A DNA stretch of 64,000 bases, from the NCBI GenBank assembly GCA_028753945.1, contig JAPNXP010000004.1:2604001-2668000 (forward strand), written 5' to 3'. The notes below the pieces were generated by a model. That model saw only the letters and a program-made list of their open reading frames with translations, was not told the DNA's origin and did not search any database. Below are positions 6,650 to 64,000 of this stretch, piece after piece. The translations under genes were made by a program, and so were the position numbers. Within the stretch, counting starts at the first letter, position 1. Each line of letters starts with the position of its first letter. This stretch comes from Hexactinellida sp. DTS-2022 (taxonomy: Eukaryota > Porifera > Hexactinellida).

Positions 6650-9405
6650 GAGGACCTTTCAGATACAGGCACCTCCCTCTACCGGGCAGCCTTATTAGTG
6701 TGAAGCCAGGCTGAATATGCATTCATTTAACCAAGAGAGGATTTTATTGACAAATTTAGATTACAAAATAATAACTTACATTCCACAACATGTTGAAAAA
6801 ATCAGTTTTTGATTTTTGAATGAATCTAGAAAATATGGAATATACCGTTTGGCATTGCGCATGCTCTAACCATTGGGGAATTCCATGTCAAGTCAACCAG
6901 TCATTTCAACACTATCGATCGATTTGTCTGTAAATTGCTGTGTGACAAGCTACAAGCAAGTCTATACTTTCATCAAAATGTTAGACTAATCGGTTAAGTG
7001 ATTTTTGATTTATGACGTCACACATTTTCATTTTCTGTTGATTATCCAAAGTGCTCAACAAATTAGGTGGTTTGGTGGCGATAGCCACCAAAAATCTTAT
7101 TTAAGCTACCAAATTTTGCCTTTGGTGGCTTAACTAATCTACCATAAATTGTGAATAATTTTTTCGTTGCATCATTTGTATTAAACTGATCTGAATAATT
7201 TAAAAAAATATTAAAAGACCTGTTTCAACGGATTTTGATCTATTTCCTATTAATCAGTAATAGTTACATATCATGGATCTCCAAATAAGCTACGGATTTT
7301 GATCATGTCTACGGATCTTGATCACTTCCTATTTGAGTAGTATTATAAATAAATATGCTGCCAATCTATTCTAACTAATTTTATTCTATGTTTCTAGAAT
7401 GGAGTAATTGAATTTGAACAGATTCAGAATTTTCTCAAGAATGGAACAATTCTTTAGAGTTGAAGAGCTACAAGAGAAGGAATTTTATTCGTAGATGCAG
7501 TGTGTACCGAATGGGAAGACATTTGGATATTCAAAGAAAGGAATATTTACTCAATATATTTTCAACATAGTAATTTTTTAAATTAATTATTATACAGTGT
7601 TTGGCATCCCCTTATGATTTTATTATGTCATAAAATACAAATTAGATGCCGCTGCCGTCCTTAGAAAAATTATATAAGCAAAGCGAATAATTTATTTATT
7701 TAATCATCAATCAATGAGATGATGATAATGAAATGCTGACGGCCGCATAGTGGTTTATTGACAGGGAGTTGGACAATTTTTTACATATTCTGATCTTCAA
7801 AAACGTTTTTATCGTGTTCAGCATAATCGAGAACCTAGGTAACTGTTTTTACAGTTAAAAATTCATAGTAGAATTAGAAATATGATGCAGTGTCTATAGA
7901 TTCAATGGCTAAATAAAATAGAAGAAATTTTGTGGTTAACTATTATGAATCATTTCATGCTCGTGTATCTCATTAGGTTTCGATCACAATCAGCTAATAC
8001 TTTCACAGTGTTTAATTATAGTTTATATCATCTTAAAATGTTGAATACTCTTCATAGAATTATTGTCCTTTAGTATAATTATCATTGCAAATTATGATTA
8101 GCTGGAAGCGTCCGAACTGCTAAATTCCATGTATTGGTATTGCGTAAACTTGTAGTGTCGTGTCGTGTCGTTTTACTAGCCCGATTTTTATATAAAGTTT
8201 AACTATATAGCTTGAATTTTAACCACTTTCCAGCCCCGCGCAACCGCGCGCAAAATAAAATCTACTTGTCTTTATACGGGGGCTTTGAAGATTTATATAC
8301 GAAGATTTTAATTTCTTTATCAAAATTTCATCAATTAGTAAACTAAATGAATAATTTAGAAGCGTGGGATTACCTTACAACCAAGGAAACTATACGGGTT
8401 GCTGTAAATTTAATAGAAAATGCAAGGGTGATCAAATGCCAAAATTGGAACAAGAAAAACTGGTCGAACCGTTGATGTTAAAAAAGCTGGTTATTTAACT
8501 GGCCTAGGCTCTCGAATTACATTATCAACTTAATTTATATCTCACCATGCATTTATTTAGAGATGCATATAAATGAATTAGCTCTAGTTTATTTGAAAAT
8601 ACTAATTTAGCTAATATTTGTGGAATTATGGGAATAAATAAAACACTATGACGTCATAACTTAAAAAATTGAAGCCGTGCTAATTTCTGAGTCCATAAAT
8701 GGATTCACAGGTATAGATAACCCATGGGTATATAATACATTTGATAGGTCTATCTGCTCTGGAAATACCTACTTCCTGTGAATGATCCAAATAAACCACT
8801 GTGGCCCGGCATCCTCAGAATTTTATATGGAGCTAAAACAATACTACCATTTAATTAATACTGGCCTAAAACATAAACGTGTTCATCAATATTTATAATT
8901 TAATACAATAGCTTTCGCGATCGTAAAGGAAGTGAGACCTTCCTCCAAGTCCCGCCTCAGTCCGACGTGTTGGGATTCTGTCAGCATCATAATGATGTCA
9001 CCATACTGGAGGCCGAACAACAATAGAGGCAATCCGCAATAAATACAATTGGAATGGATAATATAAATATGTTGAAGACTATGTAATGTTTCAAAATATC
9101 GAAATATTAAACAAATGTAGTGTCATCTATAAATATTATTTAATCATTTATGTTAGAAGTTGTTCTATGAATGTCAGATGAGTGCTCCATTACCACCTCA
9201 ACCACATCGAGAACTGCAGCCCATTTCTCCTCCTGAAGCCTCGACCCGCACTCTTAAAAATTCTTTTCCGATCCTATCCATAGTTATATCAGTTTAAGCC
9301 TACACTATACTGATAACAAATCCACCATCAGAATTGATTTCGAATAATATTCGCTCGAGTGATTGATTATAGTTCCAAATTGCGTAATATTAAATTCCTA
9401 TACCT
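6650..9405. other. unassigned DNA, about 2.7 kb
   Basis: No recognisable gene. Visible items are a small hairpin near 7065-7140 (ggtggtttggtggc with its inverse), a gtgtcgtgtcgtgtcg run near 8155, and a relatively GC-rich patch at 8925-9010. A 39-codon proline-rich frame starts at 9178 after an acceptor-like tgtcag. The last two could be exons, but nothing identifies them. Confidence 0.35.
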
Positions 9406-18141: not shown

Positions 18142-18149
18142 TGTCTACG

Positions 18150-20508: not shown

Positions 20509-20554
20509 GCCTTTACGACTTACAATGTATTTGTACACAAAGGTAACCAGTTAC

Positions 20555-23689: not shown

Positions 23690-23908
23690 TTCACCCCTAA
23701 TTATTTAGGTCTTATTCCAACATGTACAATATTTTAGGTCTTATTCCAACATATTTCATTTTAGGTCTTATTCCAACTTGGACAATATTTTAGGTCTTAT
23801 TCCAACTTAACCCATTTTAGATCTTATTCCAACATATTTCATTTTAGGTCTCATTCCAACTTAACCCATTTTAGGTCTTATTCCAAACTCATTTTAGGTC
23901 TTATTCCA
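23690..23908 (-). repeat. terminal tandem array of the foldback element, right
   Basis: About eight copies of ttaggtcttattccaac with the same linkers as the left array in inverse order. The array ends ggtcttattcca at 23908. The outer copies have variant spacing (ttccaaactcatttt). Confidence 0.85.
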
Positions 23909-32426: not shown

Positions 32427-33010
32427 CATAAACTCCTTTAAATAAGGACTATAGGCGCTCATTCTCGGGTCCTGGTACTTGGGTCCTTTAGGTATTTCGT
32501 AATCGGTTAAAGTTAGACACATATAATGTATTATTGTCGTATAGGAAGTCATAGTTAAGGAGTCCAACGGTCATATTGGATTATCGAAAATATTTGTTGA
32601 ATGTTATTATGCGGTTTTCACACCTTTCCATATATGGTAATATTGTTAAAATCTCGAGATCAGTTAGCTTTAGACATATGAAATGTATTATTGTAGTATA
32701 GGAAGTCATATTTTGGGAGTCCAACGGACATATTGGATTATCGAAAATATTTGTAGAATGTGAGTTATGCCGTTTTCACACCTTTCCATATATGGTAATA
32801 TGAATAAAACCACGACAACAGTTAGAGTTAGGCATATTTAAATATATTATTTGCGGATAGGTAGTATAATATGGTGAGCTATTTGTCGTGATAATTATTT
32901 GCTATACCTCTAATGTTTAACTTACAAGTTTGGATTTGATTAGTATGATTGTTAGCATGGAGAAAGTATTATCAGTACATTGACTGTATCTAAAAGTGTT
33001 AGCAAATTAA
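32427..33010 (+). repeat. inverted arm of the P-type foldback, left
   Basis: Contains two related blocks with tataggaagtcatattttgg and cacctttccatatatggtaa. It ends near gcatggagaaagtattatc, whose inverse gataatactttctccatgc is at about 36565. Confidence 0.8.
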
Positions 33011-33121
33011 TCATTTTCTTCTTGTAACTTTCCCTCCGTCGAAGACATCCAAGCTGTTGCTCACGATCACTGAAGTGGTAAACTTGAGCTTTTAAGAGAG
33101 TATTAACTAATGAGTATAGAG

Positions 33122-34634
33122 CTAAATTGTCTTCAGCAAGAGGATGATCAAAAATGAAAGGAATTTAATTACATTTGTTCGACAACTATTTTTGGCCCTC
33201 GGAAGTAACTCAAGAAGATTAACAGCAGTTTGAACAAAACCAGTCGTGGACAATGTTGGCACTCTCAGCCCTCCCCTGTCGAGTTCTTGTAGAAATTCAG
33301 TAGATACTAGGTCCCCTTCCATTTCACCATGCTTAAATGTTATATATCCAGCAATGAACACTACTTTGTGCTTTAAAGTATTGCCTGAATCAAGGAGGAG
33401 TTGCGTGTCCTCAATACTGATCTCTTGCATTAGCTCTATATCTCCCAAACAGACTGGCGTTGTACATTCTGGGCAGCTAAACTCTGGAATTCCTTGAGAA
33501 ATTATATTGTATTTCAGCAACTGATGTAATCGCTGTGCTTTGGCTGCTGAGAGTACATCAACAATATCAATGTAACAGTTTCCTCCATTGCGCTATCTGG
33601 CTATTCCAAAAAAATTTCCAAGGGGTCACCCGAGAAACCGCAGGAAGAACATACTGAAAATTGTGTTAAGTCAATAGATACGTGGCGGCTACAATACTAT
33701 ATTTTGTTGTGATCTTAAAAGCATCGGCAGTGAATTGAGTAAGCTTTTTTGTCGAAATCTTCCTCTTTCCCATCGACAGGAATCTATAACGTCGCACATT
33801 GCTGATAGTTTGCTAAAGTTGTCACAATTCAATGTCCAAAGTGCACGATGTGGATCATGAAGATGTATTGTGCTAAACTTGTCTTTTAGGTTCATCATTC
33901 TGACCAGTTTGTTTTCAATGTGAGAAATATAAAAGTTCCCTCCTGTACCCTTTAAGACTTTGAATGCTGCAATCGTCTTTTCATGAAAGCCTTGACATAC
34001 CAGCGGTACGCTCTGTCTTTGTAGTTGTTTAGGAAAGACTGAGGTATGAGTAAGCTTTGTAAGACGTAATTGCATCTTTTATATTCTCATATAGAGCTTG
34101 GATGTCTCTCCAACATGCCAGATATTCTACATCGTTCTCTTTAAAGGACAATTCCCAGGTCCTCTCAGTTATCCAATTATTCCTCAATTTTTTTAGGATA
34201 TGAACGTAATCATAAATTAAGTACATATCGACACCGCATACCTCCACTTTCCCAGGACCACCAAGTAAGCGGTACACACCTTGATTTATCGGACAGTTAT
34301 CACAGATAAAGGATATTGGCTGGATATCCATTTTTCTCAATCCTTCAATTATTTCCCCATCAAAATATCTCGAGCCTTCGCTGCATATTTTAGAAACTGG
34401 ATGATCACCAATCACTAAGCGTGGTCCTCCGTGATGGCAAACAATTTCTATACAAAAGGCAGATGTAGCAACTGCCTCTGTGGCATTAGTAGCATAACCA
34501 ATGATGTGGCCGGCTGTTAAGCGCGTGTTCTTCAATAACTTTACCTCATCAAATAGTATGTCAACAAGACGTTGCTCAGGTTTCAGTACTTTGAATATGA
34601 GCGGCAGATTGGTGTTTGCGAAACAACGAGACAT
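33122..34634 (-). pseudogene. P-element/THAP9-type transposase, frameshifted
   Basis: The main frame (34029-34634, 201 codons) contains RLTAGHIIGYATNATE, IEIVCHHGGPRLVIGDHPVS, FICDNCPINQGVYRLLGG, DYVHILKKLRNNWITE and ELSFKEND. These are the RNase H-like core and GTP-binding-insert region of P-element/THAP9 transposases; D in ICDNC is the expected second catalytic acid. Frames at 33689-34075 and 33122-33520 (KHKVVFIAGYITFKHG) continue toward the C terminus after frameshifts. An upstream piece at 34890-35375 is coiled-coil-like. No THAP zinc finger is seen. The gene is inactive. Confidence 0.75.
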
Positions 34635-35099
34635 TAAATTTCGAACAAGTTGTTCCCTAGGGGCTTAATTATTCTGTAATTTCTTATCATCCTGTAAACA
34701 GCTGGAGATATACAAAGAAGTTCTCCAGCAAAAATCAGTATGTGTTTTGTATACCGGATATTATTAGCTGAAATCTAGAGAAATTCTAGCTGGGTCTCTA
34801 GGAACTGAAAATGTGTTGATTCTTGTACATCTATTGTCATTTGTTTCAATTCTTCCATGGCCTTTAACAAATGATCATTGTTAGAAGTTTCTTAATTATT
34901 AACAATCGAGAGGATTTCTTCCATCTGAGACCATCTATGAAGGAGGCTATTCTTCTGTAGATTGAAAATTATCTTTGTGGTTTCATAACCATTCTTTTCT
35001 ACCTTAGACAAATGAAGAAACCCAAAGCAAGACTCTACTTTCTTAAAAAGCAGAAATACTTAACCACTTTACTCCCTAATTCATCCACCATGAAAACTG

Positions 35100-35375
35100 T
35101 CAATTTTTCTCCGTGATTTCTAACGCTGAATGATGTGAATCGTCTTTCAAATTCTCTGCAAAAGTGGTGAAATCTAAGATCTTATCACACTCGTCAATAT
35201 ACTCTCTCTGCAATTTATCCCTTACAGCAGAAGTAGTCTTTCTTGTTTGGATGTGTAATAGACTGCTTCTGACAAGACTTGGGCACACCTTTAAAATATG
35301 TAGGAGGTCCAATTGGTCGCTTCCAATTGGACCTCCTACAATTGGTCGCCTCCCCGTACAGTTACCCATTTGCAT
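35100..35375 (-). pseudogene. possible N-terminal piece of the P-type transposase
   Basis: A 91-codon frame on the transposase strand contains AVRDKLQREYIDECDKILDF. Its start overlaps a local duplication (ttccaattggacctcctaca repeated with ccaattggtcgc). The assignment depends only on position inside the element; no known domain is visible. Confidence 0.3.
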
Positions 35376-35881
35376 TAAAAGTGTGATGAACAGACAAATA
35401 TCTCTTTTCGATATTTAAGACTCCCAGGTTCATTAGGCATGGCCTCAATCCATCTTGTCCTTTCAACCCTATCTGTGAGAAAACTGACAACTTGACTATA
35501 TGGTCATTGGCGCAAGTTTTTCATGTTCAGCGCAACTGTCGTGGGTACCCGAACTGTCGTGGGTACCCGAAGCAGTGGTAAGGTTGAAGAGAGACATGAG
35601 GCAGCTGTTGAAAGGAATGAGAAAAGGTCGAAGTGATGATTTCTATTCTGTGACATTAAATTTATCGATTAAATTTGTTAAGAAATTGTATTTATTAACT
35701 AAAAATATCAAAAAAATTCTGTCGTGGGTGCCCTGGCACCCAGGGCACCCACAGGTTTTGCGCCTATGTATATGGTTCCCCATCATAGTTACCACGACAG
35801 TTGAATGCTGCACAACGTTTTGGCATAATTACTGTGTTACTTGTGAGATTATATGCTAAATTTTGTAAATACGAAATAAAA

Positions 35882-36018
35882 TATAAAAAATCCAAAATTG
35901 CAGCTGTGCCGACGTATTTCCTTTGGTGGCACTATCTATTGGTGGCTACCGGTTGGATAATTGATAGTGCCTCCAAGGAAAATACTGTCGGCACAGCTGC
36001 AATTTTGGATTTTTTTTC
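35882..36018. mobile_element. hairpin MITE, copy 1
   Basis: aaatccaaaattgcagctgt and its inverse enclose ttcctttggtggcacta with its partner. Related copies are at 42215-42330 and 49985-50120. It could fold into a nearly complete hairpin as RNA. Confidence 0.7.
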
Positions 36019-36529
36019 GCCATGCCATCATCACTATGAAGGTGTTCAGAAAGTGAAATAATGAAAAAGATAACAATTATATAATTTATATTTTAAATTA
36101 TACTTCGCTAGAATTAATTTGTACTTCAATGGAATTAGCTAAACTGAAATGATGCAGGTGGAGTCAGTGAATTAAAGACTTCTTACTCTCGACCAATTAA
36201 ATTACAGCTTCGGTTAGGCATTCTATATGCACACTAACAATTGATAGAAAATCCTTTTATACTAAATGGATGCTAGCTGCTAATCCATACTGGGACAACC
36301 CTCGAACTAATTGACTAAGCCATAATTGGATTAAATAGGTGTTAAAATTATTTGATCATAAATCGTAACCCCAGGTGCAAATTAAAAGGGCACTCCGCTG
36401 CCAAGTTTCAGCTCTCTATGTATAAAGGTGTGGCCAGGGCACCGTCTAATGAGAAAAAATATATATATTAAAGGCAGTAAGATTAGAACTGGGCCACTAT
36501 ACTATAGTATAGTCGGCACAGTAAAAACT

Positions 36530-37124
36530 AAGCATTATTATTCTTTACCATCAACATTTAGTTCGATAATACTTTCTCCATGCTAACAATCATACTAATC
36601 AAATCCAAACTTGTAACTTAAATATTAGAGGTATAGCAAATAATAATCACGACAAATAGCTCATCATATTATACTACCTATCCGCAAATAATATAGTTAA
36701 ATATGCCTAACTTTAACTGTTGTCGTGGTTTCATTAATATTACCATATATGGAAAGGTGTGGAAACGGCATAACTCACATTCTACAAATATTTTCGATAA
36801 TCCAATATGTCCGTTGGACTCCCAAAATATGACTTCCTATACGGCAATAATACATTCCATATGTCTAAAGCTAACTGATCTCGAGATTTTTACAATATTA
36901 CCATATATGGAAAGGTGTGAAAACCGCATAACTCACATTCCACAAATATTTTCGATAATCCAATATGACCGTTGGGACTCCTTAACTATGACTTCCTATC
37001 CTATACGACAATAATACATTTTATGTGTCTAACTTTAACCGATTACGAAATACCTAATGGACCCAAGTTCCAGGACCCGAGATTGAGCGCCTACAGTCCT
37101 TATTTAAAGGAGTCTATGTATTGT
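36530..37124 (-). repeat. inverted arm of the P-type foldback, right
   Basis: Reverse complement of 32427-33010 with scattered substitutions and small indels. The blocks ccatatatggaaaggtgtg and ccgttggactcccaaaatat recur twice. Confidence 0.8.
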
Positions 37125-37717: not shown

Positions 37718-38787
37718 CCGTGACCTTCGATATATAAGGCCTGAGTGCTGGTTTGAACCATGGATTACTTAAAGTGCATTGAAAAATGGAGAATTGTTCT
37801 TTATCCCAATAATTAGCAATGATAGAGCTGAAAAGTGTATTATAACTATATAGGAATATGGTACCCAGGTATACATAGCACTCTCCAGAATTGTGATATG
37901 TCATCATCTGATGACGTAATGGTAATTTTGGTTGCGAATTATCTTGTTTTTCTAGCATACTTTTAACATAGTTAAACGCGTTATAAATGTTCAAAATTGG
38001 AACATGGTTATACCCATAACTAGTTGAAAAAAATATATCGAAATTATAAATGGAATGTTGACACATTCCTCGGTTGCCATGGAAATGTATATTTCCTAAA
38101 ATGTGTCATAACTCAAAAACTATGAATGTTATGTAAACTAGGCTGGTACTGATCTGTCCGGAATAGGTAACTTCCTATTCATTGATAATACATTTTATAT
38201 GCCTAACTTCAATCATCTTTGAGATAGTGAGTCATTACCTAATAATGAATTAAGTGTTAATTATGTCATGATCTCAAAAGTTATTGAAGTTAGGCATATA
38301 AAATGTATTATCAATGAATAGGAAGTTACCTATTCCGGACAGATCAGTACCAGCCTAGTTTACATAACATTCATAGTTTTTGAGTTATGACACATTTTAG
38401 GAAATATACATTTCCATGGCAACCGAGGAATGTGTCAACATTCCATTTATAATTTCGATATATTTTTTTCAACTAGTTATGGGTATAACCATGTTCCAAT
38501 TTTGAACATTTATAACGCGTTTAACTATGTTAAAAGTATGCTAGAAAAACAAGATAATTCGCAACCAAAATTACCATTACGTCATCAGATGATGACATAT
38601 CACAATTCTGGAGAGTGCTATGTATACCTGGGTACCATATTCCTATATAGTTATAATACACTTTTCAGCTCTATCATTGCTAATTATTGGGATAAAGAAC
38701 AATTCTCCATTTTTCAATGCACTTTAAGTAATCCATGGTACACAAATTTTCGCTTAGCACTCAGGCCTTATATATCGAAGGTCACGG
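37718..38787. mobile_element. 1.07-kb palindromic element with 5-bp target duplication GTAGG
   Basis: GTAGG occurs at 37713-37717 and 38788-38792. The element is an almost perfect inverted repeat from CCGTGACCTTCGATATATAA to its complement, with the centre near 38250. Both halves contain a mirrored open frame, which is a shadow of the symmetry and not evidence of a gene. Superfamily unknown. Five-bp duplications are known for Transib/RAG elements among others, but the ends do not start with CAC. Confidence 0.75.
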
Positions 38788-50120: not shown

Positions 50121-50253
50121 TCATCAACGCCGCAAGGTGTCAAGAATCATTTGTTAATTGGTCCGAGTCACAAGGAACGGTAGATAAATTTGAAGTTTGT
50201 TTCTATCATAAACCATCTTGAGTTTAATGCCATTCATTCATTATATATTGTCA

Positions 50254-51594
50254 GGGACTTCTTTAATATAGGGACTGTAAACTTCGTTTACGGTAAAATT
50301 AGCGTAGGCCTAAAACAGAATTGTTACTTATTGATATCCCGTAATCCGCTAATGCTAGACACAGGAAATGTATTATTGTCGTATAGGAAGTCATATTTTG
50401 GGAGTCCAACGGTCATATTGGTCTATCGAAAATATTTGTGGAATGTAATTTATGCGATTTTCACAGCCTTCCATATATGGTAATATTGTTTAAATCTCGA
50501 GATTACTTAACTTTATACATATTAAATGTATCATTTTCGTACAGGAAATCATATTTTGGGAGTCCAACGGTCATATTGCTTTATCGAAAATATTTGTGGA
50601 ATGTAAGTTATGCGATTTTCACACCTTTCCATATATGGTAATATTGTTAAAATCTTGAGATTAGTTAACTTTATCCATATGAAATTTATTATTGGCGAAT
50701 GGGAATGGGAATTGATATTTAGGGACTCAGTAGATCACATTGATTTACCTAAGGCGTTCCCCTTAGCCTATATTATTATTTTGGCACTCTCCACAGGAGG
50801 ATTGCCCCGACCCTGTTTTGTAGTTTAGCTAATTCTTACCTATCAGATATCTGTAATTAAGTTGTTTATTAAAAAATTTATTGATAAGTTTCTTTCAAAT
50901 CTATATTTAAATCAATGTTGTCCAATAAAATTTATTAAGTGGTGATGAGAAATGGATTTAGGACTACATATTCTGATAAAATTCAAAAAATTTAATACTT
51001 TATACATTAATTTCCCAATAACTCTGCTGTTATTCAACAGACCGGCTAACTGTTTAATAAAATCTCTAACCGTTAACAGATGTCAGCAACGGTTAACTGG
51101 TTAACCGAATCCAGCCTTGTTGTTTTTTAAATAAACAACATAATGACAGATATCTGATAGGTAAGAATTAGCTAAACTACAAAACAGGGTCGGGGCAATC
51201 CTCCTGTGGAGAGTGCCAAAATAATAATATAGGCTAAGGCGAACACCTTAGGTAAATCAATGTGATCTACTGAGTCCCTAAATATGAATTCCCATTTCCC
51301 ATTCGCCAATAATAAATTTCATATGTATAAAGTTAAGTAATCTCGAGATTTTAACAATATAGACCATATATGGAAGGGTGTGAAAATCGCATAACTTACA
51401 TTCCACAAATATTTTCGATAAACCAATATGACCGTTGGACTCCCAAAATATGACTTCCTATACGACAATTATACATTTCCTGTGTCTAGCATTAGCGGAT
51501 TACGGGATATCAATAAGTAACAATTCTGTTTACGGCCTACGCTAATTTCACCGTAAAACGAAGTTTACAGTCCCTATATTAAAGAAGTCACTGG
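50254..51594. mobile_element. palindromic relative of the P-type foldback
   Basis: Ends gacttctttaatatagggac and its inverse resemble actcctttaaataaggactg of the 32427-37124 element. The arms (about 590 bp each) contain the same gtccaacggtcatattgg and ccatatatggtaatattg blocks. TATTGTCA and TATTGTTA flank it, an 8-bp duplication with one mismatch. A central spacer of about 280 bp has no transposase, so it is a deletion derivative. Confidence 0.7.
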
Positions 51595-51602: not shown

Positions 51603-51930
51603 ATAAATTCACAGTGGTTTAAAACGGCATTTTGTAGGGAATAGGTATTTGGGTGCCAGATAGACTTATAAAATGTATTATGAGCCTATATGTTATCGCC
51701 AATTTGGAATTGATTTGCCATATTATTATTTCTGTATGGTTTCGTTTTACCAAACTATAACTCGTCAATATTAATATATATTTATTTTTTACATTTTTTA
51801 CATTTTTATTTAGAATATACTACACATACTTCGATAAGTACGATGGTTATTTCTTGGACTGAGTTGGGATATATATATCAGTATATATTTTTACAGTATA
51901 CAGAATACATTAAATACATAAACTAATAAA
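51603..51930. other. unassigned DNA, AT-rich
   Basis: ggaataggtatttgggtgcc and gcctatatgttatcgcc resemble the tandem repeat at 61350-61615, which lies at the same position relative to the second RAG1-like gene. It may be the 3' flank of the RAG1-like element family. Confidence 0.35.
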
Positions 51931-52727
51931 TTCTAACAGAACTTATTAACGAATCTACTAGAACATCAATATTAAAATTGGATTCAATTTCTTTCTTACA
52001 TTTTCTCAAATGGCCACATTCTCCACAACTCGGGCGAATTCAAATTTTTCTGAAATTGAGCAAAACTAGGTCACTCTCAGAAGCCAGCCTGACGAAAATA
52101 TCCATTACATTCGACTCAAAACTATTTTTCCTGGACAAATTGTCCCTGAATTGCCTGATCAATTTGTTGCAAGACTCTAGACCTTCTTCTGAGAAGCACC
52201 ATAACCAGAATTACAATCGCGTATCAATTCTTCGGAATGGGCAAGCAGTTTGTGAAGAGTTGGAGTAATGCTGGCCCAAGGAAAAGAATCGAGAATGAGT
52301 AGGTAAGTAATTCTACATAGATTACCGAGTTCTTCTGTATTTGCTCTCCTCTCAGAATTAAAAATCCTTTCTATAGCTGCAAGTTGATAGTGAATTATAG
52401 AGAGGGCTGGTCTATGCTGATTTTCTACCACGCTTAACACAAATTCAATTTATTTAGCTTCAACTGAAAATTCTTTTCGGGCAACGTTACCAGTTGATGA
52501 TGTACCTCCTTTAGGATCTGGTTGATCTACTTTAAGCCCTGTTTGGTCCTGAATTAATCCACGAACGAATACCATATATTGCTTTATATGGACAGAGTTT
52601 GGAGACCATTGATATTTTCCAGAGTTTAGGTGATAAATTAACAAATTAAACCACCTAAAACACACGTATAGGAGTGAAGTGGTGATGCTGAATTGATATC
52701 AATTGTTGAAATGGGTTCATGTGTTAA

Positions 52728-53617
52728 GGAGTCAAGAGGTTAAATATGGCCAGTTTCTATATAACGTCTCTACAAAGTAAATCAGAACACTCCAATTTTT
52801 ATATCCGCACGACTGGAAGCACATAAAAAGTCATCAAATTTTTTTCTAGAATATCCTAATTTATATTCTTGTCAGGAAAGTACAAAACGTCGCAAAAATC
52901 CGCTTGAAATTCGGACAAAAGGACACTAAACCACGTGGCACCGATCATTTATAACGGGTATAAATTCCTTTGTTATATAATCATAATCCTGGTAAAGAAG
53001 TCTAAAATCTGCCGCTGTTAGTGTCCGGAAGTTAGAACTAAGCTCTAACGAAGATTTTATTTTTGCTTACGTCATCAAATTGTGCCGCATGACACATCCA
53101 TATATGGTATACAAAATCATAGAATGTAAAACTACATGGTTATTAGTCCCAATTTGTTGCACAGTGAATTTATATTGATTAATTTACATCGTTACATGGT
53201 TAGAGCTAGTCGCAACGACTTCTCATTCTTGAGAAAATTAATTGCTCCGTTATCAAAAGTGGCGCATCCATATGACCGACCATATATGGTCAAAAAAATT
53301 AAAATTTGCAGAAATATGCATATAGTATCTCAACTGTTTAGAGTAATTCTAATAGGTCTAAATCCAAATTTGCTAAGCAATATGATTGAATTTGACGGAC
53401 TTATAGCTGATGGTCCATTTTCTGCCCCCTGCAGGTGTTGGATTTACGACGTTTTGATCTATCCTGACAAGAATATACCATACAATCTTCTAGACTAGAG
53501 TAAATTATAAATGACTTTTATTGGACTTCCAGTCACGTCCATAAAAAAATTGTAGTCTTCTGATTAACTTTGTAGAGACGTTCGATAGAAACTGGCCATA
53601 TTTAACTTTATGACTCC
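52728..53617. mobile_element. TTAA-flanked element inside RAG1-like copy 1
   Basis: TTAA at 52724-52727 and 53618-53621; inverted ends GGAGTCAAGAGGTTAAATAT (left) and an inverse ggagtcataaagttaaatat (right). Excision leaving one TTAA restores RFNLTHEPIS in the host reading frame, which proves TTAA duplication. The 120-codon frame inside is not recognised. Confidence 0.9.
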
Positions 53618-54706
53618 TTAAGTTGAAGCGTTGTTTGGAGGGAAGTGAGAAAAATGATTCAATGTCTTCCATTTCTCCAAACATCTCAACTGCATCTGAT
53701 ATTCTCCTATTTATGGGGAATCCTTGAACAACGAGTTAACGGTCTTTAAGATCTTTGTGAGTTGCGGTGCACATTTGACAACTCGCTCCTCCAGCCCCGG
53801 AAAGTAATGCCGACATCTTTCCATCAAAATTAGATCGAATGATGTTGATATTGACATGATCACCATTCGCGAGATCTATTCCACTTTGCTTCATAGTTTA
53901 TGTGTCTTTGTTTATCAATTCATTCCTGAAAGTACGAATTGTTTCCTCGCACTCCCTTGCTGCGCAGAGAAAAATGGGTCTTTGTGCAAAAGAGAATTTG
54001 GACTCGAATTTTGCCAACTATATGTCCAGAATGCGTAGTAATAGATATTGGCTTGAAACAAAATAATATGTAATTCTTAGTTGAGGTGTTAGTAGATACT
54101 TGGTTATGGATAGTGTGGCTACCGGAGCCATCTAATCCATCAGCCATTTTGAAAGTAAGGGGAAACTCTTCTGCAGATGTCGGACTAATTACGCTTAGTA
54201 TTCGCTCAACGGTATGTTTAACAAATGAAATATACGAAGTACATACACCAATTGATTTAGGATTGGGATAAAGTGAATATGATCTCGTAAAATCAAAGAA
54301 TCCCTGAGTTCAGCGAGCTTTTTGTAGGCAGGAAAGTTAACTCCACAAGGGAGCAACAATTGACGTAATTGAGTATACTTCCTTCTTCCTAGTTCTAATT
54401 GATAGACTAAGAAGAGAGATTTGCTGATTGGAACATCTTTTACTAATTCTTTGCCAAAGTTTCCACCAAAAGCTATACTTTTCGCGGTAGAAGCGATATC
54501 ACGATCATTGCTTTCAAAAGCTAAAAATTACAATACTAATGGAGCAATTGTAATTTGGGAAGTTCCTTCACTCTCTGCTACAAGTCTAACACATTCTAAA
54601 ACAGATTCTAACCTTGTTCGCTGTTGCTTGATGGTTAGTGATAAAAGATGCTTACGAAATTGTTTAGAAACTGTAAAGGAGGTAACACTTTCTGTATGGC
54701 CAAGGA

Positions 54707-55063
54707 CAGTGGCGGCGGAACCACGGGTGCTACGTGGGCTATAGCCCTCCTGAAGATAATTAAGGGGGGCTTAGCCCCCCTAAAGGTCAGGCTTGTATAG
54801 GATTATAGGTCAAGTACTGTGATATACTTGTTTAATCTTTACCTGGCTAAAAGCAAATTTTGTATTTACACATCAAATCACGAATACTGTTTATTGCCTG
54901 TGAAAGCTGTCCTAATTTAATTTCCACTTTAAGTAGTAAATTCCACTTTATGTCTTACTATTAAGAAGCACTTCGTATAATTATATACCAACAATCACTA
55001 ATATTACCTATAATTTTCTGTTACGATTTCAGCCCGTATAAATTTTTTAAATTCCCGCCACTG
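54707..55063. mobile_element. hAT MITE inside RAG1-like copy 1, TSD GCCAAGGA
   Basis: GCCAAGGA at 54699-54706 and 55064-55071; ends CAGTGGCGGCGGAACC and ttcccgccactg. Removing it with one duplication restores RKNINILGHTES in frame. Confidence 0.9.
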
Positions 55064-55473
55064 GCCAAGGATATTGATATTCTTTCTTGGACATGGTTGC
55101 CAGTGTATTTCATGATTCCACCATTTATTTTCGGTTGAAGATTCAATCGGTTTGTGAGATTTCTTTAGACTAGTGCTTATTCTTCTAAATAGAGAAGAGA
55201 CTGAGTCTTTCTTATCTTCATCCATTCCAAGTACGTCCAATAATTCATTTATTGAATCATTCACATTGAAATGAAGTTTCTCCAGCATGAATGCTAAATC
55301 AAGTCGTGATTTCGGATTCAGCCATAATAATATTTTGATTATAAACTGATTTCTGTCGATTGTAAATTTGTACAGGTTATAATATGTTATTGTTTCTACT
55401 TATATTTATGATAATATGATAAATTCTTTGATCGAAGTTTTTTTTCCGGAGGCTGAATTGATAGCCTGGAATG

Positions 55474-57774
55474 AGGAGCTTGCAATTGAGCAAAAAATGA
55501 GCTTAGCAATTGGTCAAATTTCGATGGTTTGCTATTGATCAACTAACCTTTGCCATTGATCAACTAACCTTTGCATTTGATCAACAAATGTTTACAATTG
55601 CTCAACTATGTACATAGTTTACAATTGATCAACATAAACTATATTGTTAATCAATTGGCAACCTCTAATATGCTAGGATTTACATCATATTGATTGTTTC
55701 TCACTTTAGGTTCGCAATTGATCAACTCACTCATTGTTCAAAAAATTATATTGTTGCTTATAGTATGTGAAGTTCAAAACACAACCGTATAAAATATATA
55801 TATACTTGTAAATAAGTACCAAAAGTACCATTTGTTATGTTATTTGTCACAATTTCATGGAATAATCTTGTAATATCTACAAACATAAGAGAGGATGCAG
55901 TTACACAACATCGGATGGTTTTAAATACTCAAAGATAAGGAAATACAGCAATGTAACGTTTCTGAGATGTGTTTTACATAGCAATTTCATTCGATGTCAT
56001 GGAACAGCTAAACTGGATGAATTTACTAATGTAGTTCAACCATCCTCACAACCATCAAATATCAGAATATCACACTGAACTCTAGGAGTTAAAATCTAAA
56101 TGCAAATCGGCTGCTAAAAAATCACAGGGGAGGTTGAGTAAGGTCTTTCGGGAATGTACTCGAAACGAACCAGCTGCCAGTTTATTGTCCTATAAAAATC
56201 TTGAAACGACGATGTATAGGTCAAGACGTGAAATTGAACCCATAATCCCAAAGTCTGCAGCTATGTTTTGTCAACATTTAGTGTCAACAAGATACGCGAT
56301 ATATTATAGAGGGGCTGTACAAGTTGATGAAGATATAGGAGCAATTTTTTTCTTCTGAGAAGATGAATGAAGTTCTTACTGGAGTTGAAGAAATTCAATT
56401 TGACGATACCTTCTATACTGTCCCCATTCAATTTTATCAACTTTGGACTGTGTTTGCAAGCAATAGAGGACATGTTACTCGTTGTATTCACTGACTTTTG
56501 ACAGGAAAACAAGAAACACTAAACTGAAGTACTTCGGAAGATTCGTGGGCTTGTTCCTCAATTACAGCCAATTCGAGAAATGTCAGATTGGGAGAAGGCA
56601 CCTAGAAATTCTCTAAAAATTGTATTTGAGGGAATTCATCTTCAGGGATGCTTATTTCATTATACGCAAAATATTTGGAGAAAGTTACAAAAACTAGGCA
56701 TTACAAATCTCTACCATAGTAATAGGGAATTTAGAAAATTAGTAAGAGCTCTGATGAACCTACCATTTCTCCCTGAAGAATCTATATTGCCTGTTTTTAA
56801 CCTTCTTAATGTGACTTCTTTGACCATAGTTTGGGAAAATTTTCTCAGATTTACGAAATTTAAAAGGTATATTGAAAAACAGTGGATTAGAAGACACCAG
56901 CAAACGAATTATCTATATTTAATGCCATTCAAACCACTAATAATGGAGCTGAAATATATCATGCAAAACTTGAGAGTGAAGGTGTTGTGAAGCAACCAAG
57001 AATATGGCATTTTGTTCAAGTTTTGAATAAAATTATTGCCGATACAGATATAGATTTAGAACGCTTAAGGATTGGTGTAGAGATTTCTCGCCCGATAAGG
57101 AAGAAGAGCATCCTAAACGCAAAATTAAGGAGAGAGTGTAAACAGAAGCTTGAAGATGGGGAATACACACCTCTTCAGTATCTATATGCATTGGAGGATT
57201 CAAATGAGCCGGATATAAAATTTCCTCAACAAAGTGAGGAGACCTTGTCAGAGACCGAAGAAAATTACGATGAGGAAACCAATCAGGCTGTTTGTTGTGT
57301 TTGTTTACAACCGAGAGTGTCTACAATATTATTTACCCTTGTAGACATGCTAAATTTTGTCAATGCTGTAGTGACCAAATTGGGAATTCATGCCCTATTT
57401 GCCGCTCAATTATAACAGATCGAATACAGATCTCACCTAATAATTAATCTACCACTTCTTAGCATCACATATTTTCTCTATAATATTTATTTATGCTACT
57501 ATGTACTTATAACCCAATAAACTATAGTTATATTTGATAAAAATATATTTTGTTCTTCAATTGCAAAGGTTAGTTGATCAATTGCAAAAGTTAATTGATC
57601 AATTGTCAATGTTACTGAAATCCTACAATATGAGAATTGATCAATACTGTATTTCCTATTGTTGATCACTGCAAGCGGTCTAGTTGATCAATTGCAAACA
57701 TTGATTGATTAAATGCAAACCTTGAAAATTTGATGAATTGCATACTGTTGTAGTTGATCAATTGCAACACCCTC
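55474..57774 (+). mobile_element. FLYWCH-MULE-RING element, 2.3 kb, with 9-bp target duplication
   Basis: CCTGGAATG lies at 55465-55473 and 57775-57783. The inverted ends aggagcttgcaattgagcaa and agggtgttgcaattgatcaa lead into tandem ttgatcaactaacctttgca units at the left and their inverse at the right. A 9-bp duplication is diagnostic for Mutator-like elements. The single gene inside reads + and is broken. Confidence 0.9.
55890..57447 (+). pseudogene. FLYWCH-MULE transposase with C-terminal RING finger
   Basis: Domains in order: FLYWCH finger (SDGFKYSKIRKY, FLRCVLHSNFIRCHGTAKLD, about 55930-56060); linker LSKVFRECTRNEPAASLLSY and YRSRREIEPIIP (56134-56260); TPase segment SDWEKAPRNSLKIVFEGIHL, QGCLFHYTQNIWRKLQKLGI (C-x2-H of MULEs) and LPFLPEESI (56580-56850); TTNNGAEIYHAKLESEG (the C-terminal NN-x-x-E motif); then CCVCLQPRVSTIL and, after a one-base deletion near 57335, CRHAKFCQCCSDQIGNSCPI with CR following. 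This is a full C3HC4 RING ending at a stop at 57447. The first catalytic aspartate region (about 56390-56420, QFDDTFYTVP) is also visible. Three frameshifts make it inactive. A RING suggests ubiquitin-ligase activity of the transposase or self-regulation (inference). Confidence 0.8.
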
Positions 57775-57783
57775 CCTGGAATG

Positions 57784-58583
57784 TGTAATATTAGAATAAT
57801 TTTGTAGAAATTCATGCCACAAAAGAGCATATCATATATCTGTAATAATAGAGTTTTATTGTGATGATACATTATTTAGATATAATAACATAACTAAAAT
57901 TAGATCATCTCATTCCCTAGCAACAGATAGTGTATAATGGAATGTATGATCAACCTATAGTTGCACTAATTTTTGGGTCCTGAAATTTTACCATCTCTCC
58001 AGAATATACTAAAGATCGCCTAGCAAGAGTATTTCGTTGACCTTTATGACCTTTTTTTTTGCGGACATTTATCTTCTGTCTAAATGTTAATAGTGAGAAT
58101 CGGACAGTGGCCAATTCAAAATTGCAAAAACAACAAAACTTGATGACTATCAAAATATATCGTTCAACTATAACGAATAAACCATAGACGGAATCACTAG
58201 AATAAGTGTTACATGTGTAGTGATGTCAATATAACTAAAGATATTAAAGAATGCATGCATATAGAAGAGATTTTAAGATCTCACCGTTATCCACGGTGTG
58301 TGAGTTAAGTCAATAAGTCCATTTATTAAATTAATTTATTTAATCCTTTGTATAGTAATACTACAATTAAATAGAAACCAGCTGGAATTTATAATTTAAA
58401 TCAATATATTTATCGCAAGTTGAAACAATAGAATTAGATTTAACAGTTTTTTATTGAACTGAAGTGTTTGTAGACAAAGGAAATTTGCAACTCAATTGTA
58501 TCACAAACTAAGGTCAATTTGAAAATCCGTGCACTGTAAAAAGTGTAGAATTTTATCTCTATCGAATGCATATAAATTGAATA
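57784..58583. other. unassigned DNA between the MULE and a pogo MITE
   Basis: AT-rich; a 67-codon - strand frame (57950-58153) has no recognised motif. Confidence 0.35.
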
Positions 58584-58700
58584 CAGTGGAGCCTCCCATA
58601 ACGGACACTCCAAATAGCGGACAACCTCTAAATAACGGACAACCCTCGTGGCACGGATTTATTTATTTAGCATATGTCTAATACAAAGCAACCTCTCTCG
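58584..58700. mobile_element. truncated pogo-type MITE
   Basis: TA-CAGTGGAGCCTCCCATAACG and the inner ggacaacctctaaataacgg match the inverse of 26670-26874. The other end is missing. Confidence 0.65.
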
Positions 58701-59640
58701 TCTGTAAGGATAGAGTGGTGCTCTCTACCTATGTAATTGTTTTCGAAATAGTTGGCTACGAATATTGCATTTACAGGAAAATCTTTTATCAATTTATTGA
58801 AACAATCTTCACGTCGATTTCAGGGACAAAGGCAAGACTGGGTAACATATTAATTTTCAATGATATTACAAATGTAAATACAAAACAATCTTTAAACTTA
58901 CGCACTTATTTAGCTCTATAAACAGCTATTTTGTTTTCTACTACTAAGTTCATCAACCTTTTTGTATTCAAATAAATAACACATACAAAATTTCCCTCGA
59001 TTTTTGAACTAAATAAATTGGTCCAATCTGTAGAAAATACTAGAGTCCATGAATTTGTGTAATATTTTTCTATTCCATTCCACTTAGCAAAAGTTGACCA
59101 CAGATCTCCTCCATAAACACGGAATGTTCAACTATGACTTCATTATCCACAGTACTGTCATCTACTGATGGCACTAGCAAGTAGGTTTTGGGGATATTGG
59201 AGGTAATTTCAATTTCTGGTTTCGGTCCATCAGTAGATGACAATCCCGATACTTGTTGATCTGAAGAAGAAGAGGTATGATGCAATTTAGGGACAGAGAT
59301 TCATGAAATGAGCTTAAAGTATCTGAACTTTCTCGACAAGATAGAATAAAGCTAGTGAATAAATATAGTTGTTGGACTGTGATAGCTATACTTATATGAA
59401 TTCCCAAATAGTAAACTGACATTTCGTCGCATGGACATTTCGTCGCTAGGTTGTTTTAAACAGATGCTTTTCTTTCAATATATAGATTATACTTCACACT
59501 ATACAATTGATAAAATCACACTAATACTTATGATTTAACTCCAATTTGGTCTATTTGTTGCATCTAACGAAAAAGAATATATGGGTTCTGTCATGGAATA
59601 TATACGTATACCTTCATAAATACAAATTATCAATTGAAAT
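58701..59640. other. unassigned DNA, possible MULE 3 left end
   Basis: gacatttcgtcgcatggaca then tttcgtcgc near 59420 is a short duplicated motif like the array ends of the other MULEs. No partner is seen on the right. Frames at 59070-59422 are not recognised. Confidence 0.3.
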
Positions 59641-59664
59641 CAAATGGCTACATGTTCTATTCCA

Positions 59665-60908
59665 TTTACTATTGAAATGTTCAAGACAAGCAAAGATAGA
59701 GATAAGGCTTGCATAGAGGGTTTTATGTATACGCTAAGTAGATCAACTTCAGCAGGCTCACATTGGGTTTGCGAAAAGCGTGGAACATGCTAAGCCAGTT
59801 TCATAACACAAATAGGAATGTCATAAAAACGACTGACATGACTATTATTCACTCATCTCAACACACGCGCCAGATTGTTCATGAGTGCAAATGGTTAGTG
59901 GCTTGAACACAATGAACATCTAGCTATGAACTCTAATGATAGCACTAGATCAATATTGGCCACTAGATTGGAGACAATGACTGACTCAACTATATCTAAA
60001 TTATATAAATTTGACTCTATAAAGTGGACAATCCGTCGCCAAAAATCTCAAAAAATTTTACATCATCCGCATTGCCTGAAGAAATCCCAATTCCTGAAAA
60101 ATTCAAGATTACATTAAAAGGACAACAATTCTTACTATTTGATTCCATGATTGGTGATTTTGAAATACTTCTGATATTTGGCACTATACAAATGCTACGC
60201 TACTGCTTGATTCAAGCAGTTGGTTCGCGGATGGCACATTTAGAGTAGTACCAAGTAAGTTTTTCCAGCTATACACACTTCATTTTTAAAAAATGGGTAT
60301 ATCATTCCATATGTACCTATACACGTATGCACTAATGACAAACACGAGTGAAATTACCTACATAAAACTCTTTAGCAAATTGGTTTACTCGAACCAGATT
60401 TAAACTAAAAAATACAATCATGATAGAAAAGGCAGCTTTTAATGCTTTAGAAGATCAATTTATTGCGTAAATTCCGGATGCTTTTTTATTTGTCACAAAA
60501 CCTCTTCCGGAAATTCAGTCAGTCTTTCAACTCAATATATGGATGACGAAGAGTTCGCAGTCCAAATGAGAATGTTAGAAGTTCTAGCGTTCGTTCCAAA
60601 ACGTGATGTATCTGACTCCTTCGTCATACTAATGCCACAGTTTCATCCTACTTCAGTGGAAATAGCGGATTACTTTGAAATTAATTACATGGGTAGAAGA
60701 CTCCCGGATCAAAAGTGGAAGGACACCACCGTACCCAATAAGTATCTGGAACATCTTCTTTCGTGTAATATCCAGGACCGCATGGACCAACTACGCTGTT
60801 GAAGGGTGGCATAATGCCTTTAAGTTTGGGGTAAGTTGTCCCCACCCGTGTTTTATTAAACTTTTGAGCCATTTGCAGAAAGAACATTCATTACAAGAGC
60901 AAATGTAG
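59665..60908 (+). pseudogene. FLYWCH-type MULE transposase 3
   Basis: FLYWCH-like finger (IEGFMYTLSRSTSAGSHW, CEKRGTC, 59690-59800), linker MTDSTISKLYKFDSIKWTIR (59980), the PIPEKFKITLKGQQFLLFDS segment, SSSWFADGTFRVVPSKFFQL (first catalytic D, about 60225), then MDDEEFAVQMRMLEVLAFVP (60541) and YAVEGWHNAFKFG (C-terminal MULE motif, about 60795). The middle third (60290-60470) is largely lost or unreadable. Closely related to the - strand copy at 48377-49600. Confidence 0.7.
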
Positions 60909-61052
60909 TTAAATGGGAAGCAGGGAAAATTTCAAGCATTTCAAAAAATTGCGAGACGAGAAACGAGAGAATTTTCAATATTGTCTCGAATTACGAAAAC
61001 AGAGAAACGCGCTTTCCTACTTACGTGGAATCAGGGCTTTTCCAGGAGCGCG

Positions 61053-61116
61053 AAATCTCTTATATAGAATATACAGTTCAAAAGATTTTGAACTGTATAT
61101 TCTATATAAGAGATTT
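61053..61116. repeat. perfect 31-bp hairpin with a 2-nt loop
   Basis: aaatctcttatatagaatat (continuing acagttcaaaa) is followed by ga and then its exact complement. The arms are mismatch-free in a region where other repeats are decayed. Confidence 0.9.
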
Positions 61117-61129
61117 TAAAGGTGACAGG

Positions 61130-61349
61130 CGATAGTTACTCTCTCATTAGTCAAGGGTTTTATCCAGGAGCGCGCCCGCCATACGCCTAGAGGCGTATAA
61201 ATGGGAAGAGTTTTCGTTTAGGAGCGCGAAAACTGCCGAAATTCCCTATATAGTAATACAAAACTAACCTTTTAGGCGTACAAAATTCATACTATTGTCA
61301 CCCTAGGACAGTTAGGAGCAGGGTTGGCACAGTGGGCAAAAACATGTAG
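61130..61349. other. diverged element-end motifs
   Basis: Contains gttttatccaggagcgcg and ggagcgcgaaaactgccgaa; similar motifs are at 45312 and 61035. Unclassified. Confidence 0.35.
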
Positions 61350-61615
61350 ATCAGCCGTAATAGGTATTTAGGTACAAGTTAGGGCTATTAAATGTATTAG
61401 TTGCCTATGGGTTATCACATATAGCGAGTTGATTGGCAACAAAAAATTTTTGATATGGCTTCCACTATTCAAATTATGATGACGTGGCACAATGTATAAA
61501 ATTAGGTACACAGCCGTAATCGGATTATAGATAGATATTAGTGGATTAATTGTATTATTTGCCTATGGGTTATCACATATAACTAGTTGATTGGCAACTA
61601 AAAAAATTTGATATT
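61350..61615 (+). repeat. two tandem copies of a 140-bp unit
   Basis: gcctatgggttatcacatat and agttgattggcaac occur at about 61400-61440 and 61560-61600, with gccgtaat and attag blocks before each. The unit lies just downstream of the RAG1-like copy 2 stop codon. Confidence 0.65.
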
Positions 61616-61797
61616 ATTTATATTATTCCTGTTGTGATGACATAGCAAAAATTCATAAATTTTCATTTCACCAATATTTTAATTATCATGAGCGAAATAG
61701 TTGAACTAGTCATACTAGTTGTATACGTCTATAAATGGATTACAGATGATCGAGTTGCAAGTTATTTTTCACTATGAAATAAACTAAGAATCTAGTA

Positions 61798-63931
61798 TTA
61801 GAACATAACTAAACTTTGAAAAAGTTCTTCATTTTTTGAAAGATGGTTTGATGGTTTTTTACACTTTTTGCTTCCAATAAGCTTTCTTTGGGAGAATGCG
61901 ATATAGTCAGATTGAGAAGTTAGACGAATAAAGATATCTTTTATATTCTGTTCGAAAGAAAATTTCCTGGCTAATTGTTCGCGGTAACGTCGAATATGCT
62001 TATGACACGCCTCCAGACCTTCTTCTGAGAATGATTTCATCCCTCTACCATCATTGTACTCTTCAATCAATTGAGCAGCATGAGCTAGTACCTTATGCAA
62101 GGTAGGAGTGATACTAACCCAAGGAAATGTTACGATTATTGATTCGTAAGTATCTCTACACAATGTTGTAAATTTTTCGATATCGATTCGCTCGTCACAG
62201 TTAAATACACGCAGTATAACAGCTAAATTTGTGTATATAATGTTGAGTGGAATGTGATATTCACAAGGAATTAACGTTGTGATCCAGTAAAAAAAATCCT
62301 TCTTATTATCGTCCATTCGTTGAAAGCAACTCCGAGCCACATTTCCTGTCGAAGTTGTACCTCCTTGAGTAGAAGGACAGTCTATTTTAATGTGTATATT
62401 TTCCCAGAGGAAGCTACGGACAAACACCATTGATTGACGAACTTTGGCTTTGGATGGTGCCCATTTTTTCTCTCCAGCTTGTAAATGGTATACCAGTTGC
62501 ATAAACCATCCAAATATTCTCAAGTATCCATGGAGAGGGGAAACTGAGAGAATATTTTCATCTGATATGGGTTTATGTGTAATTCCAAATCTGTCTTTGC
62601 TCGAAAGAGAAAGAAATTCTTCTTCATCGGTGTCTTCAAATATCTCAAATGCAGAATCAATTGAACGGTTAATAGGGAAACCCTGCTTAATAAGATCAAT
62701 ATCCTTCAATTGATCTCGAGTTGATGTGCATAAGTGGCAAGATGCTCCACCTGCTCCGTCTAAGATAGATGCTATTTTAGTATCAAATAAGCACCTTGTG
62801 AGCTCGATATTAACATTTCCAGCTGTTAATTGGATTCCATCTACCTTTAAACTTTTAGTAGCAGGATTAATTATAGAATCCATTAAATACTTATCGCTAT
62901 CTTCGCTTTCACCTAATGCCAATATGGCAACTGGTCTCATAGAAAAAGGGGAATTTGGAGAAGGGTTCGTCCATAAAGTGTTCCCTAAAGAATCTTTTAG
63001 CCAGAGTATTTTAAATGCGAACAAGAGAAAACATTTAGTTGTGAGGTCTGGATGATTTTGCATTTGGTTGAAACCGTGTGTGATCCTGAGCCATCTAAAC
63101 CATCAGTTAGCTTTGCGGTAAGAGGATAATTAGCATTTTCAGATATTTCCCCCTCAACTATCTGGCGAATTGTTTGCGCTACGATCAATTTGTAAGGAAG
63201 GTAGATACCAACTGGAGTGCCAAGGTCTTTGTGAAAATATTTCATTTCATTTACTAAACAGTTGTCCTGACGAAATGTGGCAACTCTGTTGTAAGATGCG
63301 ATTAAAATATTATCTTGCTGTAAAAAACGTCTCAATTCCCGATACTTGAGTTTCCCAATTGAAAGAAAATCCAATAAGAACAAGGAATTTCTATCAGACA
63401 GGGATGTATTGTTCAGTTCTCCATACGTTCCCTTCTCAACAATTTCTTTGCAAACTCCAATGGTAGTATAATCCTTTTCTTCATTGGAAATTAGCATGAG
63501 ACATAAAGATGCCACTGTCTTTGGTGTAACTTCCTCAAGTTCAGCTATGGACTTTATGTGTGTCAATAGTGACACGAGTCGGTGTCTAAGTTGTTGAAGG
63601 TGTAACTTTAGAAGTGGCGTTCGGATTTCTTTATTGGAATCAAGTTCAAACATGAGTTTTGGCGTCGGCTCAGTTGAGAAATCGGATGACTTACGCTTCT
63701 TCAAGCTCGATGTCTGAGTAAATGGAATATTAATGAAGTGCATTAGTTCCCAACTCCCTATATCACCATTCTGCACAAATTTTCTTCTAGTGTCCTTGAG
63801 ATGCATTAACTTAGAACGTATGCTAGGTAATTCTGTCTCGGTAATTGGGACTCGTAGAGTATTTGTTCTGACGCTTCACGAGTATTGTTGTTGCAGGATT
63901 CGAGAATGTTATATGCTTGAATATTGTTCAT
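61798..63931 (-). pseudogene. RAG1-like transposase, copy 2 (nearly complete)
   Basis: It starts MNNIQAYNILESCNNNTREA (63931); one frameshift near 63850 joins ITETELPSIRSKLMHLKDTR and the 269-codon frame, which ends at TDGLDGSGSHT. A one-base deletion near 63085 leads into the 421-codon frame (numbering below from its ATG at 63063): FKILWLKDSLG, D94 in CLFDTKIASI, C109 and C112 in GGASCHLC, GGTTSTGNVARSCF (234-247), H323 and H328 in TLHKVLAHA, and E347 in FSEEGLEACHKHIRRY. Mouse RAG1 uses D600, D708, E962 and zinc ligands C727, C730, H937, H942; the spacings here (C-C 3, H-H 5, H-E 19) almost equal RAG1 (3, 5, 20). About 710 codons cover only the core; no N-terminal RING and no kelch-type RAG2-like gene is seen. 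RAG-like enzymes cut at inverted repeats and make 5-bp duplications. Two frameshifts probably inactivate it. Confidence 0.85.
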
Positions 63932-64000
63932 GTTTTCGTTATAACTAATAGATTTAGAACTACCCAAAATAAATCAACACAGTTTAATTATAATTTAAAA

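Follow-up and report, generated by a model that had tools for sequence, protein, structure and literature searches.

Two decayed copies of a probable Transib-type transposon with RAG1-like features in a hexactinellid sponge contig

Introduction

A stretch of 64,000 nucleotides from contig JAPNXP010000004.1 of Hexactinellida sp. DTS-2022, here called the window, contains on its minus strand a decayed transposase that is of the DDE type and belongs to the RAG1/Transib superfamily (copy 2, 61798-63806, identified by PDB and Pfam searches). A more decayed relative, copy 1, lies on the same strand. The Transib family is the transposon kin of RAG1, the enzyme that assembles antibody genes. Judged by its residues and similarities, copy 2 is a RAG1/Transib-type transposase that is best filed as Transib, probably of the Subgroup I kind. 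Our favored explanation, which we regard as reasonably likely, is that the two copies, now dead, separated long ago and belong to a cut-and-paste Transib-type transposon of Subgroup I (Tao et al., 2022; PMC9435367) that acted without RAG2. Within the literature searched, the two Transib subgroups are described only in that paper. The coordinates of the features are collected in Table 1.

Table 1. Features of the two transposase copies and of the related element ends (positions in the window).
Feature	Coordinates	Strand	Basis or remark
Copy 2 N-terminal frame, 269 aa	63000..63806	-	Putative nonamer-binding-like and dimerization region; first catalytic Asp
Copy 2 C-terminal frame, 421 aa	61798..63063	-	Pre-RNase H, most of RNase H, zinc-binding region, C-terminal domain, tail
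First catalytic Asp D235, N-terminal frame (TDGLDGSGS)	63102..63104	-	Equivalence to RAG1 D600 by eye
Second acidic active-site residue E52 (GES)	62908..62910	-	BbeRAG1L E764 by alignment
Second catalytic Asp D94 (FDTKI)	62782..62784	-	BbeRAG1L D811 by alignment
ZnC2 ligands C109-x2-C112	62728..62739	-	Alignment
ZnC2-to-His insert, at the RAG2-docking alpha11-alpha12 place of RAG1	62533..62727	-	Aligned with BbeRAG1L and zebrafish RAG1
Active-site His H178 (PLHGY)	62530..62532	-	BbeRAG1L H894 by alignment
GGTTSTGNVAR, GN-x-AR segment	62332..62364	-	PDB alignment; GTT as in HzTransib GTTNDGNTAR
ZnH2 ligands H323-x4-H328	62080..62097	-	Alignment
Catalytic Glu E351 (FSEEGLE)	62011..62013	-	BbeRAG1L E1063
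Decayed counterpart of the CxxC-GH-xxx-C tail, copy 2	61831..61863	-	DNA alignment; codon pairing by eye
Copy 2 3' end, two tandem ~160-bp units	61328..61650	+	CACAGTG at 61328, CACAATG at 61488
Copy 1 transposase remnant, fragmented, containing stops and frame changes	51998..54659	-	tblastn, frames
Nonamer-binding-like core of copy 1 (RKHLLSLT...RL)	54453..54659	-	Pfam RAG1 positions 12-81
Element inserted in copy 1, ~180-bp inverted repeats (79% alike)	52724..53621		Breaks the tblastn match
C-terminal CGECGHLRKC of copy 1, C,C,G,H,C order	51998..52027	-	Stop five codons before
Copy 1 3' end, starts CACAGTG	51610..51760	+	End homology
Third end of the same family, starts CACAGTG	8652..8803	-	End homology

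Homology and decay of the transposase copies

The 421-aa part of copy 2 carries the assignment. It matches 18 PDB sequences at E<=10, and 17 of these are Transib, RAG1L or RAG1. The best match is HzTransib (6pqn, E=5.4e-24), followed by the amphioxus BbeRAG1L (6b40, E=3.8e-9) and by fifteen vertebrate RAG1 sequences (E 2.9e-5 to 1.4e-3), while the single unrelated match has E=1.6. At the sequence level, the resemblance to HzTransib and BbeRAG1L is not due to chance. In one search a Pumilio chain (2.7e-6) ranked slightly ahead of HzTransib (3.3e-6), although none of its stretches was significant taken singly (1.2 and 0.14). The RAG1-like identity proposed in an earlier sequence-only reading is thus borne out for this part, since both the PDB matches and the Pfam RAG1 model point to it and the Pfam search found no other DDE family. 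The RAG1 profile proposed there as a check did return the Pfam RAG1 model, but below threshold (20 bits, cut-off 25; E=2.1e-4). A search of NCBIfam, a prokaryote library, returned nothing for the 421-aa part.

The 269-aa part lies in a different reading frame. Searched alone, it has an unrelated ribosomal protein as its sole PDB match (0.8) and no Pfam match, and its first-Asp region matches copy 1 at E=2.8e-6. The distance from D235 to E52 is 194 nt, or 64.67 codons. As this is not a whole number of codons, the frame changes between the first Asp and E52, and one frame change in copy 2 is certain. The sequence-only reading had described two single-base frameshifts within an open frame of about 710 codons. 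One of them is real, but the second joins a 53-aa stretch (63806-63967) that lies beyond the 269-aa frame and shows no homology. Its matches in the window, besides itself, have E of at least 2.4, and its single Pfam match, to a phage protein, has E=0.06 and 12.7 bits where the cut-off is 26. Because the 269-aa frame has its own ATG and the 53-aa stretch lacks homology, the frame of about 710 codons is not established.

Copies 1 and 2 are 48% identical over 319 aligned codons, with pN 0.36 and pS 0.76 and differences of 0.46, 0.27 and 0.61 at the three codon positions. The 319 codons come from six stop-free pieces, with piece 52644-52727 and the N-terminal pieces left out. The comparison suggests that the copies parted mostly while they were functional genes and decayed afterwards.

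Active-site and zinc-binding residues

For vertebrate comparison we take the relevant mouse RAG1 residues to be D600, E649, R848 and E962. Residues E649 and R848 are named in the excerpted texts of PMC7204232 and PMC8355894, and E962 appears in structure entry titles. The active site of BbeRAG1L is D701/E764/D811/H894/E1063 (PMC7204232, excerpted text), and all five positions have a counterpart in copy 2. The three catalytic residues D, D and E listed in the sequence-only reading are present, the two Asp residues in the motifs it gave (TDGLDGSGS and FDTKI). The Glu has to be moved: E1063 of BbeRAG1L lies three residues past the E of 'SEG', so that the catalytic Glu of copy 2 is E351, the last Glu of FSEEGLE and not one of FSEEG. 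The first Asp, which sits in the separate frame, was aligned by program with copy 1 only, where the motif is kept as ADGLDGSGSHT, and with RAG1 by eye.

The proposed C-x2-C / H-x4-H zinc site in RAG1 order is found as C109, C112, H323 and H328. Likewise, GGTTSTGNVAR does align as the GN-x-AR segment at the place of NG-x-FAR in RAG1. Counted from the second catalytic Asp to the Glu, copy 2 has a spacing of 257 residues, mouse RAG1 of 254, BbeRAG1L of 252 and HzTransib of 211, where 11 HzTransib residues missing from the alignment printout were counted as X.

Placement between Transib and RAG1

Copy 2 is very probably a Transib-type transposase by its similarities. Its best-stretch BLASTP scores are 101 bits with HzTransib, 57 with BbeRAG1L and 37 with mouse RAG1, so that similarity to RAG1 or RAG1L does not exceed that to Transib. 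The reference pairs score 41 (HzTransib and BbeRAG1L), 34 (HzTransib and mouse RAG1) and 188 (BbeRAG1L and mouse RAG1). With BbeRAG1L as the query, HzTransib reaches only 0.0045, and copy 2 is therefore nearer to HzTransib and to BbeRAG1L than those two are to each other. The sequence-only reading had suggested a RAG1-only or Transib-like branch; between RAG1L and Transib, the Transib side is favored. Two residue features are also HzTransib-like, namely the GTT of GTT-x2-GN-x-AR and a Pro at the place that we take to be RAG1 E649.

HzTransib is a transposase-only element with heptamer-like ends (PMC4411706 and PMC8289069, excerpted texts). Unlike it, copy 2 has the longer Asp-Glu spacing given above and a zinc region that is 35 residues longer: the second zinc Cys and the active-site His lie 66 residues apart in copy 2 and 31 in HzTransib, compared with 65 in mouse RAG1 and 61 in BbeRAG1L. 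In the PDB alignment the insert of copy 2 shares I-x-R and K-D-x-F-G...P with BbeRAG1L, and copy 1 also carries a zinc-region insert. The alpha11-alpha12 place thus appears, from alignment, to be retained in copy 2. Bacterial and Subgroup I Transibs have preserved the RAG2-binding alpha11-alpha12 region, which Subgroup II has lost, and Subgroup I Transibs also retain a RAG1L-type tail (PMC9435367). From its short insert HzTransib would belong to Subgroup II, an assignment that is ours and is not so worded in PMC9435367.

A tail that may correspond to it is seen after a stop in copy 1, with a decayed counterpart in copy 2. The CTT motif of RAG1L is Cx2Cx3GHx4C (PMC7204232, excerpted text), and the copy 1 tail keeps the C,C,G,H,C order as Cx2C-GH-x3C, with a shorter spacing of (2,0,3) against (2,3,4). 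Compared by description, Subgroup I Transibs (Tao et al., 2022; PMC9435367) share with the present element the Transib-like character, the alpha11-alpha12 place and a CTT1-like tail. Five-sequence trees, which included part of copy 1, are unrooted and give no placement for either copy, and HzTransib is the sole Transib sequence compared; the subgroup placement therefore rests on these features. An ordinary, HzTransib-like Subgroup II Transib in which a RAG1-sized insert expanded independently is the strongest competitor and still unlikely. HzTransib is the best match, and most of the Transibs identified earlier fall in Subgroup II (PMC9435367), but the insert aligns with that of BbeRAG1L, is present in both copies, and is accompanied in copy 1 by the ordered tail.

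A nonamer-binding-like core is supported in copy 1, if weakly in statistics. The Pfam RAG1 model matches at 54453-54659 with E=0.026 and 13 bits (cut-off 25). A 144-aa piece of copy 1, with X at one stop, matches 16 PDB sequences at E<=10, and all 16 are vertebrate RAG1; HzTransib and BbeRAG1L are absent among them. The best match has E=0.0034 over the whole sequence, and its best single stretch reaches 0.13. These matches include 3gna, which we take to be the nonamer-binding-domain structure. In copy 2 a similar core is plausible, with weaker matches than in copy 1; a profile (A4) for this region placed zebrafish RAG1 (0.57) second to an unrelated protein (0.56). Such a core would presumably take part in DNA recognition.

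Copy 2 is like vertebrate RAG1 in its active site, zinc ligands and insert length (65 against 66), and the core of copy 1 reads RKHLLSLT for RQHLLSLT. It differs in having Thr at the R848 place, by an ungapped count from GN-x-AR, and in that no RAG2 and no N-terminal RING were seen, the upstream side of copy 2 being outside the window. With ProtoRAG and its BbeRAG1L the element shares the D-E-D-H-E active site, the C2/H2 zinc ligands, an insert of similar length (61 against 66) and the tail order of copy 1. It is unlike them in its lower similarity, in other residues before GN-x-AR, in the shorter tail spacing and in that no RAG2L was seen.

Search for an adjacent RAG2 gene

From the stop codon of copy 2 to the 3' end of the element there are 470 bp, which leaves no space for a convergent RAG2L gene on that side. 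When 54301-61300 was scanned in six frames with Pfam at E<=0.1, it matched RING, FLYWCH, MULE and RAG1 and showed no kelch. These two results agree with the earlier observation that no RAG2-like gene is adjacent, and the element presumably lacked RAG2. The region upstream of copy 2 is outside the window and so outside this search. In most of the RAGL elements described, RAG2L is convergent with RAG1L (PMC7204232, excerpted text). The alga Aureococcus has its RAG2L upstream of RAG1L (PMC9435367).

The transposase could instead be the RAG1L of a RAGL (RAG1L-RAG2L) transposon whose RAG2L was lost or lies upstream beyond the window. The RAG1-like insert length and Asp-Glu spacing, the vertebrate RAG1 matches of the copy 1 core and its CCGHC-like tail would fit this, as would an Aureococcus-like arrangement on the side that the window end cuts off. 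We consider it improbable, as copy 2 scores 44 bits higher with HzTransib than with BbeRAG1L, its GTT and Pro are Transib-like, the usual convergent partner would have just the 470 bp, and kelch is missing from the scanned region.

We retain the reading as a Transib-type transposon. By analogy with HzTransib and RAG, the intact element would have had one known protein, the RAG1-type transposase. Its N-terminal nonamer-binding-like and dimerization regions would bind and pair both element ends, and nicks would be placed 5' of the CAC in the CACAGTG ends. The D-E-D-H-E active site would make hairpins on the flanking DNA, and the freed ends would be joined to new target DNA cut with a 5-bp stagger, presumably giving a target duplication. 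The whole reaction would proceed without a RAG2 partner.

We see about even chances for a broader view, in which a Transib lineage had a full RAG1-like architecture (here nonamer-binding core, RAG2-docking helices, CCGHC tail and an RSS-type heptamer at the end) and never had RAG2. The docking surface and the nonamer-binding domain would then be older than RAG2 and V(D)J recombination. A similar argument has been made from other Transibs (Tao et al., 2022; PMC9435367). A further family with a nonamer-binding core, a docking insert and an RSS-like end would help to date the parts of RAG1 relative to RAG2. Since both copies are fossils, their value is comparative unless the host genome holds intact relatives.

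Element ends

The sequence-only reading had pointed to ends beginning CAC(A/T)(A/G)TG, and all three recognised ends begin with CACAGTG; the end recognised for each transposase copy is its 3' end. CACAGTG is also the RSS heptamer. The commonest heptamer in Ig loci is CACAAAG (PMC8355894, excerpted text). Unlike in vertebrate RAG1 substrates, inspection of the copy 2 end by eye showed no nonamer at 12 or 23 bp. The local alignment of the copy 1 and copy 2 ends starts exactly at the heptamer (score 43 against a maximum of 16 in 200 shuffles), and that of the copy 1 end with the third end, near 8.8 kb, begins right at it (35 against 18 in 200 shuffles). The copy 2 end and the third end align with a score of 30, against a shuffled maximum of 16, and this alignment extends outside the heptamer. 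The heptamer alone was rejected as evidence, with six CACAGTG in the window against 3.6 expected from a first-order Markov model. Because the motif is not rare here, the evidence for the ends is the homology boundary and not the heptamer itself.

Between the N-terminal piece of copy 1 and 61328 there is no CAC(A/T)(A/G)TG in the needed orientation. As the 5' end of copy 2 is beyond the window and no 5' end was recognised for copy 1, neither an inverted-repeat pair nor a target duplication could be read. The shared ends also bear on whether the sequences are a domesticated RAG1-like host gene. Apart from the long open frames of copy 2, little speaks for such a gene and we regard it as extremely improbable: there are two broken copies, 48% identical, with heptamer-led ends in common, a third end without a transposase match by tblastn nearby, and transposon-dense surroundings.

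Besides these ends, 8004-8803 may be a short non-autonomous element, as CACAGTG stands inverted at its two ends, but its 5-bp flanks differ (ACTTT and GCCCG). A model of the Transib 3' ends gave seven further matches (E 2.6e-4 to 0.009) at 32427-37118, 37754-38742 and 50252-51593; in the reversed window it gave no match at E<=1. The seven matches sit in 158-160 bp tandem units within the inverted repeats of a P-like element and of short palindromic elements. In the P-like element, 34032-34664 matches a TNP-like RNase H (PF21787, sub-threshold). Unrelated transposon families thus seem to have one subterminal unit of roughly 160 bp in common. The literature searched contains no description of tandem subterminal units of about 160 bp in Transib, which is no proof of their absence.

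Predicted structure and wider searches

AlphaFold gave low-confidence models, with a mean pLDDT of 32.6 from the single sequence and 43.9 with seven copy 1 pieces (alignment A5, in which MAFFT misplaced piece 53901-53990). With the second model as a Foldseek query, RAG1 chains rank 1-12 among the best 50 of 63 matches; the best has E 0.17 and a TM-score of 0.19, and none has E<=0.001. Relatives were found neither in viral contigs (scans with P1, of 421 aa, and with A2 and A3), nor in genome contigs (P1 and A3), nor by tblastn in plasmids and phages at E<=0.01. The collections cover viruses, prokaryotes and plasmids, and absence from them carries little weight.

Other transposons in the window

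The window contains many eukaryote-type DNA transposons and one reverse transcriptase frame, which by our reading is LINE-type. An element of about 9 kb at 12623-21635 has inverted repeats of about 1.08 kb that are 97% alike. Its frames include one for an OTU cysteine protease at 14430-15056 and one of 783 aa that has no Pfam match at E<=0.01. The element is enclosed by a second pair of inverted repeats (9497-10534 and 22874-23908, about 1.04 kb, 98% alike), which contains 27-29 bp repeats around TTTAGGTCTTATTCCAAC and a sub-threshold FLYWCH-like frame (10256-10693). At 55480-57767 lies a broken MULE-type element with a sub-threshold MULE match, inverted 21-bp end repeats and a RING finger frame. 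The sequence at 37754-38742 is a near-perfect palindrome, with 477-nt arms that are 99% complementary and 35 nt between them.
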